NCBI RefSeq assembly: GCF_009791395.1
Contig: NZ_WSZK01000015.1
Coordinates: 434,001-498,000 of the forward strand
Source of the DNA: Halomarina oriensis
GTDB taxonomy: Archaea; Halobacteriota; Halobacteria; Halobacteriales; Haloarculaceae
Reading direction: 5' to 3'
Length of the DNA: 64,000 nucleotides
A model generated the notes under the pieces. The model was not told the origin of the DNA. It saw only the letters and a list, made by a program, of their open reading frames with translations, and made no database searches. Positions 18,634 to 22,137 of this stretch are shown piece after piece. Position numbers and translations under genes: made by a program. Within the stretch, counting starts at the first letter, position 1. Every line of letters begins with the position of its first letter.

Positions 18634-21600
18634 ATGGCACAGGCGGAGAACACCGACATCATCGACGACTTCGAGGAGTTCTACCGCAACTACTACCGGA
18701 ACGACATCGGTGAACTCGCGCGGAAGTACCCCAACGAGCAGCGCTCGCTCTACATCTCCTACGACGACCTCTATCGCTTCGACCAGGACCTCGCCGACCA
18801 GTACCGCAACCAGCCAGGACAGCTCCAGGAGTACGCCGAGGAGGCGCTCAGACTGTACGACCTGCCCGTCGACGTCTCGCTCGGGCAGGCTCACGTCCGT
18901 ATCCACGAACTCGACCAGGTGACCGACATCCGGGACATCCGGGCGCGTCACCGGGGGCAGCTCATCGCGGTCCGGGGCATCGTCCGGAAGGCGACCAACG
19001 TCCGTCCGAAGATACAGCAGGCGGCCTTCGAGTGTCAGCGCTGCGGTACGCTCACCCGCATCCCCCAGACCGGCGGCGACTTCCAGGAACCCCACGAGTG
19101 CGGTGGCTGTGAACGACAGGGGCCGTTTCGCATCAACTTCGACCAGTCGGAGTTCGTCGACGCCCAGAAGATTCGCGTCCAGGAGTCCCCCGAGGGACTG
19201 CGTGGCGGGGAGACCCCACAGAACATCGACGTCCACATCGAGGACGACGTCACCGGGAAGGTGACCGCCGGCGACCACGTCAACGTCACCGGCATCCTCA
19301 GGCTCGACCAGCAGGAGTCCGGGCAGAAGAAGTCCGCCATGTTCGACGTGTTCATGGACGGCATCGCCGTCGAGATCGAGGACGAGCAGTTCGAGGAGAT
19401 GGACATCACCGACGAGGAGAAGCGGAAAATCGTCGCGCTGTCGGACGACGACAGCATCTACGAGCAGATGGTCGGGTCGATGGCGCCCTCCATCTGGGGG
19501 TTCGAACAGGAGAAACTCGCCATCATCCTCCAGTTGTTCTCGGGAGTCACGAAACACCTCCCCGACGGCTCCCGGATTCGTGGCGACTTCCACATGCTCC
19601 TGATAGGGGACCCCGGGACGGGGAAATGCGTCGCCGGAGACACTCGCGTTACGCTCGACGACGGCTCCGAGGTACCGATTCGCGAGCTCGTCGAATCGAA
19701 TCTCGACGATCCGAAGCCCGTCGACGACGGCGTCTGGGACGCGGTCAATTTCGACGTCCCGTCGATGGGCGACGACGGGTCGTTGACGATGCAGCGGGCG
19801 ACGAAAGTCTGGAAGCGAGAGGCCCCCAAACAGCTCTACCGAATCCGGACTGAGAGTGGTCGCGAAGTCGACGTGACGCCTTCTCATCCGCTGTTCGTCG
19901 GGCGCGACGGTGGAACCGAACCGGTCGTCGCCGAGAATCTCGACGAAGGGCAGTTTATCGCCGTTCCGCGGTCGTTACCGACGATGGGTGACGATTCGCT
20001 GGACATTTCGACTCGACGGTCGCAGGCCAACAACGCCGTCAGACTCGACGTTCCAGATCGACTGACGCCGTGGTTCGCTCGACTCCTCGGATTCGTCATC
20101 GCGGAAGGGTACGTCCAGCGTCGAGACGGCGGCAGCGCAACGACCTACGTTACGAACGACGACCGCGAGATTCTCGACGACGTCACGAACGCACTGGAGC
20201 GACTCGGGTTGAATCCGAACGAGCGCAGCCCACACGGTGGGAAGACCGCTCGTGAAATCGTCTGCTCGTCGAGTGAACTCGCGAGTCTCTTCGAGGAACT
20301 CGAACCGGCGATGCTTGCAGGGTCGAACGAACAGCGTGTTCCACCCGCGATACTGCGGGCCACTCGACCGGCCAAACGGGGGTTCCTGCAGGCGTTCGTC
20401 GACGCAGAGGGGACCGTCTCACCGAAGCAACGCGAAGTGAGCGTCTCTTCGACCAGTCGAGAACTCCTCGAAGCGGTCAGGAGTCTGCTCCTCGCGTTCG
20501 GCATCGATTCGCAGCTTCGGTCGAAGGCAGGTGGGAGCTATCGACTTCGCATCAGCGGCGATGACTTCGCGCGATACGTCGGGCGTATCGGCTTCGTTAC
20601 CGAACGCAAGCAGTCCGCTGCCGAGGCGATGGTCGACTCGACGTCGAACACGAACCACGACGTGATTCCTGCCGTAGGAGCCACGCTACGAGACGTCAGG
20701 GAATCGCTCGGATCGACACAGGCAGACTGTGGGCTGCCACGAAGCACGTACCAGCACTACGAACGCGGCGACCGTAACCCGAGTCGAGAGAGCCTGAAAA
20801 CGGTCGTCGAGACGTTCGGGAGTGAACTCGACGACACGGTCAACGTGGTGGCAGACGGTGGTGTCGACGCTGCTGCTACGACGCTCGACAGACTCGGCGC
20901 GATGGCGAACGACGACATCGCGTGGGACCGTATCGAATCCATCGAACCCGTCGAGTCGAACGACGAGTGGGTTTACGACCTCGAAATCGAAGGAACGCAC
21001 AACTATCTCACGAACAACGTCGTCTCGCACAACTCCCAACTCCTCCAGTACGTCCGGTCTATCGCTCCGCGCTCTGTGTACACCTCCGGTAAAGGGTCGT
21101 CCAGTGCGGGTCTCACGGCCGCCGCCGTGCGCGACGACTTCGGCGAGGGCCAGCAGTGGTCGCTCGAAGCCGGTGCGCTCGTCCTCGCCGACCAGGGTAT
21201 CGCGGCGGTGGACGAACTCGACAAGATGCGCCCCGAGGACCGCTCGGCGATGCACGAAGCGCTAGAGCAGCAGTCCATCTCGATTTCCAAGGCCGGCATC
21301 AACGCCACCCTCAAGTCGCGCTGTTCGTTGCTCGGCGCGGCGAACCCGAAGTACGGCCGGTTCGACGAGTACGAACCCATCGCCGAGCAGATCGACCTCG
21401 AACCGGCGCTCGTCTCGCGGTTCGATCTCATCTTCACGGTGACGGACAAACCCGACGCCGACCGTGACCGCGACCTCGCCGACCACATCCTGACGACGAA
21501 CTACGCCGGGGAACTCCACACCCACCGCACCGAGAACGCCACCTCGAACTACTCCGACGACGAGGTCGAGAAGATAACCGAGACGGTCGAACCGGCCATC

Positions 21601-22137
21601 GACGCCGACTTCCTCCGGAAGTACATCGCCTACGCGAAACGCACCTGCTTCCCCGTCATGACCGAGGAGGCGAAAGGGGAGATCGAGCAGTTCTACGTCG
21701 ACCTGCGAGCACAGGGCACCGACGGCGACTCACCCGTGCCCGTCACCGCCCGGAAACTGGAGGGCCTCGTGCGTCTCGCGGAAGCCTCCGCCCGCGTCCG
21801 TCTCTCGGACCGCGTCGAGGTCGAGGACTCGAAACGCGTCATCGACATCGTTCGCTCGTCGCTGGAGGACATCGGGATGGACCCCGAGACCGGCGAGTTC
21901 GACGCCGACATCGTCGAGACGGGGCGTTCGAAGACCCAGCGCGACCGCGTGCGCTCGATCAAGGACATCATCCGCGACGTCGAGACCGAGTACGACGACG
22001 GCGCACCCGTCGAGGAGGTGCTCGACCAGGCCGAGGCCGCCGGCATCGAACGCTCGAAGGCCGAACACGAGATCGAGAAACTCCGGCGACAGGGCGACGT
22101 CTACGAACCGAGTCAGGACCACCTGCGGACGGTCTGA
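18634..22137 (+). CDS. mcm: Replicative helicase MCM, interrupted by an intein
   Basis: The precursor has 1167 residues; removing the 469-residue intein leaves a 698-residue MCM, the usual haloarchaeal size. The N-terminal domain has a zinc motif (CQRC at about 134 and CGGC). The AAA+ core has Walker A GDPGTGK at 325-331, split by the intein before Ser-Gln-Leu-Leu, Walker B AVDELDKM near 859, and an arginine-finger SRFDLIF. A winged-helix domain ends the protein. The hexamer unwinds DNA at replication forks. Until the intein splices, the P-loop is broken, so helicase activity depends on splicing. Confidence 0.97.
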   Translation: MAQAENTDIIDDFEEFYRNYYRNDIGELARKYPNEQRSLYISYDDLYRFDQDLADQYRNQPGQLQEYAEEALRLYDLPVDVSLGQAHVRIHELDQVTDIRDIRARHRGQLIAVRGIVRKATNVRPKIQQAAFECQRCGTLTRIPQTGGDFQEPHECGGCERQGPFRINFDQSEFVDAQKIRVQESPEGLRGGETPQNIDVHIEDDVTGKVTAGDHVNVTGILRLDQQESGQKKSAMFDVFMDGIAVEIEDEQFEEMDITDEEKRKIVALSDDDSIYEQMVGSMAPSIWGFEQEKLAIILQLFSGVTKHLPDGSRIRGDFHMLLIGDPGTGKCVAGDTRVTLDDGSEVPIRELVESNLDDPKPVDDGVWDAVNFDVPSMGDDGSLTMQRATKVWKREAPKQLYRIRTESGREVDVTPSHPLFVGRDGGTEPVVAENLDEGQFIAVPRSLPTMGDDSLDISTRRSQANNAVRLDVPDRLTPWFARLLGFVIAEGYVQRRDGGSATTYVTNDDREILDDVTNALERLGLNPNERSPHGGKTAREIVCSSSELASLFEELEPAMLAGSNEQRVPPAILRATRPAKRGFLQAFVDAEGTVSPKQREVSVSSTSRELLEAVRSLLLAFGIDSQLRSKAGGSYRLRISGDDFARYVGRIGFVTERKQSAAEAMVDSTSNTNHDVIPAVGATLRDVRESLGSTQADCGLPRSTYQHYERGDRNPSRESLKTVVETFGSELDDTVNVVADGGVDAAATTLDRLGAMANDDIAWDRIESIEPVESNDEWVYDLEIEGTHNYLTNNVVSHNSQLLQYVRSIAPRSVYTSGKGSSSAGLTAAAVRDDFGEGQQWSLEAGALVLADQGIAAVDELDKMRPEDRSAMHEALEQQSISISKAGINATLKSRCSLLGAANPKYGRFDEYEPIAEQIDLEPALVSRFDLIFTVTDKPDADRDRDLADHILTTNYAGELHTHRTENATSNYSDDEVEKITETVEPAIDADFLRKYIAYAKRTCFPVMTEEAKGEIEQFYVDLRAQGTDGDSPVPVTARKLEGLVRLAEASARVRLSDRVEVEDSKRVIDIVRSSLEDIGMDPETGEFDADIVETGRSKTQRDRVRSIKDIIRDVETEYDDGAPVEEVLDQAEAAGIERSKAEHEIEKLRRQGDVYEPSQDHLRTV
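19627..21033 (+). other. Intein in the MCM Walker A loop, with LAGLIDADG endonuclease
   Basis: Precursor residues 332-800 form the intein. It begins Cys (CVAGDTRVTLDDGS, block A), has the block B TPSHPLF, and ends GTHNYLTNNVVSHN with the usual His-Asn; the next extein residue is Ser. Two dodecapeptide motifs of a homing endonuclease are present, LLGFVIAEGYV and FLQAFVDAEG, each keeping an acidic catalytic residue. Between the endonuclease and block F sits an extra helix-turn-helix-like segment at about 685-735 (ESLGSTQADCGLPRSTYQHY). Codon use is less GC-biased than in the exteins. Confidence 0.93.

Follow-up and report, generated by a model that had tools for sequence, protein, structure and literature searches.

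The closest structural counterpart of the element described here is the VMA-b intein of Thermococcus litoralis (TliVMA, 7qss), which shares with it the order of HINT splicing domain, LAGLIDADG endonuclease and helix-turn-helix (HTH)-type accessory domain, and occupies the corresponding position in the Walker A motif of another ATPase. When TliVMA was deprived of its accessory domain, the whole intein bound DNA less well and no longer cut at a second site; grafting the domain transferred second-site cleavage, yet in tests on the domain alone it seemed to add nothing to overall DNA affinity. In the authors' view the domain makes TliVMA more promiscuous, i.e., specificity is relaxed (PMC8966425). 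In PI-TkoII (2cw7) an HTH-type accessory domain likewise adjoins the LAGLIDADG endonuclease (PMC8966425), but the host is a DNA polymerase and there is an extra domain IV. The PabCDC21-1 and PhoCDC21-1 mini-inteins (6rpp, 6rpq) offer a counterpart to the splicing domain, and have neither endonuclease nor HTH. Closest in gene and insertion point, as well as in LAGLIDADG endonuclease and HTH, are the haloarchaeal MCM-a (CDC21-a) inteins such as that of Haloferax mediterranei (PMC10643990, PMC3972481, PMC4071816). The MCM-a site lies immediately after the Walker A lysine of archaeal MCM (PMC3972481, PMC10643990), each haloarchaeal species surveyed has one core MCM, to which inteins are confined (PMC3972481), and in vivo cutting and homing have been shown for the H. 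mediterranei intein (PMC10643990). The term HTH is absent from PMC10643990 and PMC4071816, and we found no DNA complex or assay for any haloarchaeal intein HTH.

We analysed a 64,000-nucleotide stretch of the Halomarina oriensis genome (the window), in which the haloarchaeal mcm gene is split at GDPGTGK|SQLL, within the ATP-binding loop of the helicase (Table 1). The junctions read GDPGTGK|CVAGDT and VVSHN|SQLLQYV, and Cys1 directly follows the Walker A lysine codon (19624-19626); the insertion point is the known MCM-a site. An earlier sequence-only reading had placed an intein between GTGK and SQLL, with limits that proved exact. In a Pfam/NCBIfam profile search of the precursor, the models Intein_splicing (E 9e-27), LAGLIDADG_3 (E 8e-32, in two stretches) and HTH_3 all exceeded their curated cutoffs, as did both intein_Nterm and intein_Cterm. 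The splicing residues C1, T84-P-S-H87 (the block B TxxH), H468-N469 and Ser+1 are all in place, and are invariant or nearly so in relatives. The two acidic LAGLIDADG motifs reported in that reading are intact as well; both acids are glutamates, of which E160 never varies among 63 relatives and E261 is kept in 90% or more, and in an AlphaFold2 model each stands at the end of its LAGLIDADG helix, in a fold that matched I-DmoI-type endonucleases on structure comparison. We consider it likely that the element is a full-length MCM-a homing intein made up of a HINT domain, a two-motif LAGLIDADG endonuclease and an HTH accessory domain for homing.

Table 1. Features of the mcm gene and its intein in the window (aa, intein residues).
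Feature	Position	Strand	Details
mcm (core replicative helicase) gene	18634..22137	+	1167 codons, single frame; MCM P-loop, MCM_OB, MCM_lid, MCM_N, MCM_WH_arc; NF040949
N-extein	18634-19626	+	mcm gene
Walker A codons GDPGTGK	19606..19626	+	upstream of intein
MCM-a (CDC21-a) intein	19627..21033	+	469 aa; Cys1 (19627-19629) ... His468-Asn469 (Asn469, 21031-21033) / Ser+1
HINT splicing domain, N-terminal half	19627..19980	+	aa 1-118; TIGR01445 E 1e-20
First LAGLIDADG motif, LLGFVIAEGY	20083..20112	+	aa 153-162; acid E160 at 20104-20106
Second LAGLIDADG motif, FLQAFVDAEG	20383..20412	+	aa 253-262; acid E261 at 20407-20409
HTH accessory domain (HTH1)	20677..20838	+	aa 351-404; HTH_3 type, helix 2 four residues shorter
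HINT splicing domain, C-terminal half, blocks F-G	20911..21033	+	aa 429-469, ends VVSHN; TIGR01443 above cutoff
C-extein	21034-22134	+	mcm gene
Motif-completing Walker A Ser	21034-21036	+	C-extein, after intein

The further claim that replication depends on splicing should be read cautiously. The intein does interrupt Walker A, but the same genome holds a second MCM homologue outside the window (L201, G000:C7:680268-681263), intein-free and with an intact GDPGTGKS loop, which weakens the case for such dependence. This homologue is 45% identical to the MCM of the window over the N-terminal 331 residues.

The sequence-only reading had also proposed a helix-turn-helix at about residues 685-735 of the precursor, and this segment, HTH1, is borne out by profile and predicted structure alike. 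HTH_3 matched intein residues 354-402, equivalent to precursor residues 685-733 (E 1e-7; 32.2 bits against a cutoff of 23), and the AlphaFold2 model, built from 63 sequences (mean pLDDT 91.6, pTM 0.90, with pLDDT about 90 across the HTH), agrees in predicting helices at 351-361, 364-366, 372-380 and 387-404, i.e., an HTH-type fold. A chance match was ruled out because HTH_3 matched in 34/34 aligned relatives (E up to 0.01). When the HTH1 profile was compared with the PDB, it matched the designed DNA-binding protein DBP48, a restriction controller protein and a Cro/C1-type protein; its alignments with DBP48 and controller protein C consistently showed a four-residue deletion that shortens helix 2. 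In the model this helix comprises residues 364-366 only, a single turn, and HTH1 is HTH-type, not a classical XRE domain. Given a helix 2 reduced to one turn, classical major-groove binding is not assured. The protein is otherwise acidic (HINT-N and HINT-C are each at -10), but its 23-residue recognition segment has a net charge of +2, which is compatible with DNA contact, if no proof of it.

HTH1 is under strong purifying selection. At least 90% identity is found in 45% of HTH columns, a share exceeded only by the first LAGLIDADG motif (53%). Six endonuclease-bearing pairs allowed omega for HTH1 to be estimated by a counting method; it came to 0.01-0.12, mostly similar to or below the omega of HINT and endonuclease. 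These values bear on another reading, in which the endonuclease has decayed and left the segment to drift as a degenerate relic. The shortened helix 2 would suit such decay, as would the HTH_3 score, which in the window (E 1e-7) falls short of that of the best relatives (5e-17). Against this, omega in the HTH is 0.12 between the window and its nearest relative, both LAGLIDADG acids are intact, and the shortening is common to 30/30 aligned relatives and was therefore inherited from the ancestor of the family, not acquired by recent decay; we regard a drifting relic as very improbable.

Structure comparison points to the same arrangement as in TliVMA. The best match to the predicted intein was 7qss (Z 36.7, rmsd 3.0, 408 residues aligned), although the two are only 24% identical, followed by PI-TkoII (Z 36.2, rmsd 2.6, 398 residues); the splicing domain matched the PabCDC21-1 and PhoCDC21-1 mini-inteins at Z 25-26, with 1.1-1.5 A rmsd over ~158 residues. 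As 408 residues aligned to 7qss and 340 to the accessory-domain-deleted form 7qsu, the HTH of the window would occupy the TliVMA accessory-domain position. HTH1 thus lies where an accessory domain (ACD) is found, with the endonuclease before it and the C-terminal half of HINT after it, and has a corresponding fold. Sequence homology between the two domains was also considered, and was undetected: the HINT and endonuclease of 7qss do align by sequence profile, whereas the TliVMA accessory domain and HTH1 do not. On the modelled structure, the correspondence is one of position and fold, not of sequence.

We then asked how widely the domain occurs. With a query of the intein plus flanks and a cutoff of E <= 1e-10, 291 of 391 Halobacteria genomes gave a match, although this query may also reach other inteins. 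HTH1 was found in 131/131 distinct endonuclease-bearing MCM-a inteins extracted, including 11 long ones in which an automatic motif test missed it and in all of which it was recognised on reading. An endonuclease-plus-HTH profile also reached a second group of inteins, at E about 1e-30, often downstream in the same mcm frame; three at this later insertion site (L235, L236 and L237) have the same shortened HTH1. The segment had been taken for an unusual extra of this intein, a view that does not survive its presence in every endonuclease-bearing MCM-a intein examined and in other haloarchaeal mcm inteins: an HTH-type domain is a standard, fixed part of the MCM-a homing module, not an oddity of the window copy. 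The copy number does vary. About half of the endonuclease-bearing set, the window intein among them, has one HTH (mostly 466-477 aa), whereas the remainder, mostly 527-530 aa, has a second, canonical HTH after HTH1, which a second predicted model resolved into helices 416-425, 430-437, 441-450 and 459-474 (pLDDT 91.2). The second HTH may have been lost several times independently: the tree prefers 4-5 changes, but a single clade of single-HTH inteins was not rejected (AU p 0.115).

Several further inteins were noted in passing. L235-L237 have two further HTH-like segments besides HTH1, before the C-terminal splicing block. In genome G069, two more haloarchaeal inteins, L238 in the ATP synthase A subunit (at GSGK|C) and L239 in the RFC small subunit (at GTGK|C), have HTH-like segments before and/or after the endonuclease.

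The nearest relatives of the window intein are in other genera: those of Halogeometricum pallidum (74% identity), a genome of the same family (G228, 72%) and Haloglomus halophilum (67%). In the two nearest species of the same genus, whose N-exteins are 96% and 95% identical, the site is empty and GTGK|SQLL runs on uninterrupted; another (G374) has a 189-residue mini-intein at the MCM-a site, and four more are uninterrupted there. Empty sites in close relatives are as expected of a mobile intein, and this pattern is consistent either with transfer into the lineage of the window or with loss in others, events that are usual among inteins. GC3 is 0.73 in the intein and 0.88-0.90 in the exteins; this was rejected as a sign of recent arrival, as intein GC3 lies below that of the upstream extein in 182/182 relatives measured (mean difference -0.20), which makes it a family trait. 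A co-conversion tract gave no signal, flank identity near the site to the carriers Halogeometricum pallidum and Haloglomus being not clearly above that to same-genus empty alleles, and a search of viral contigs with the whole precursor as query found no encoded relative. Beyond Halobacteria, an MCM-a-type intein on a contig labelled Candidatus Nanohalarchaeota (L190) shares 43% identity with that of the window, reflecting either transfer to a nanohaloarchaeon or mis-binning, and a haloarchaeal-type mcm intein on a contig binned as a Mollicutes MAG (L121) is presumably contamination. Elsewhere in the H. oriensis genome, outside the window, there is a mini-intein-like insertion (CFHRETKLWYEDEDG ... 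LLAKN|C; L002, G000:C7:518991-519278), whose host looks like the large subunit of DNA polymerase II (DP2).

Inteins that have lost the endonuclease help to separate splicing from homing. There were 33 endonuclease-less MCM-a inteins; the 28 smaller than 250 aa are all without HTH, and the other five (268-315 aa) have it. That all 28 small mini-inteins do without the domain upholds the earlier suggestion that it is not needed for splicing. It also weighs against a structural spacer or folding aid, needed by the splicing domain and with no role on DNA, as these mini-inteins presumably splice, the host gene being taken as essential; HTH conservation is, moreover, concentrated at helix-1 and recognition-helix positions. 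Such a structural role could draw on the retention of HTH1 and HTH2 under constraint in the other five, but we hold it to be improbable.

Those five inteins (L100 and L232, 315 aa; L233 and L234, 306 aa; L094, 268 aa) have both LAGLIDADG motifs cleanly deleted and keep HTH1, with HTH2 kept in four, and apparently represent three deletion lineages. L232 and L100 belong to one genus and are sisters nested among endonuclease-bearing relatives. Given this placement and an identical deletion point, their common ancestor had probably already lost the endonuclease. Across HTH1 and the following segment with HTH2, they differ by ~15 nonsynonymous and 32 synonymous changes, and omega for this HTH region, 0.13 (0.06-0.23), equals that of HINT; L233 and L234 are too similar to judge selection, which leaves L232/L100 as the single informative pair. 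An HTH that is kept and constrained without an endonuclease may do something besides serving one, and these cases hint at a role in its absence or at structural dependence. That the HTH is a module with its own selected role, separable from the endonuclease (site guarding, regulation or folding support in splicing-only elements), seems to us rather unlikely.

What the HTH does in the full-length element is best considered along the presumed homing cycle. In this species the precursor would splice the intein out via Cys1, Asn469 and Ser+1, restoring the Walker A sequence GDPGTGKS; the freed intein would then cleave mcm alleles that lack an intein, its target being the conserved Walker A codons, and repair of the cut allele would copy the intein in. 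The HTH would belong to this homing machinery and not to splicing; its most probable role is to touch DNA next to the cut and so to tune which sites the endonuclease cuts, whether by sharpening or by relaxing specificity. The conservation and position of HTH1 fit a DNA-contact role, and it is plausible, as the sequence-only reading had suggested, that the HTH helps the endonuclease to recognise its own site, although TliVMA, the only experimental precedent, is more complicated. One may postulate an alternative in which the HTH mainly broadens target choice, so that additional sites are cut and new alleles reached, as proposed for TliVMA; there the accessory domain creates the second cleavage site and can carry that property with it when grafted (PMC8966425), and the HTH of the window is at the same fold position. 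The accessory domain is, however, the most divergent part of VMA inteins, whereas HTH1 is among the most conserved parts of MCM-a inteins, and the high conservation of the MCM-a site (PMC10643990) is more in keeping with a fixed target than with one that roams; broadening of target choice is thus possible, and we think it doubtful.

The endonuclease-less inteins that keep the HTH provide a natural experiment on what the accessory domain does alone. For the family as a whole, the MCM-a homing module has in the HTH a fixed and conserved component, in contrast to the VMA accessory domains, which change fast and lie behind the 'changing specificity' model.
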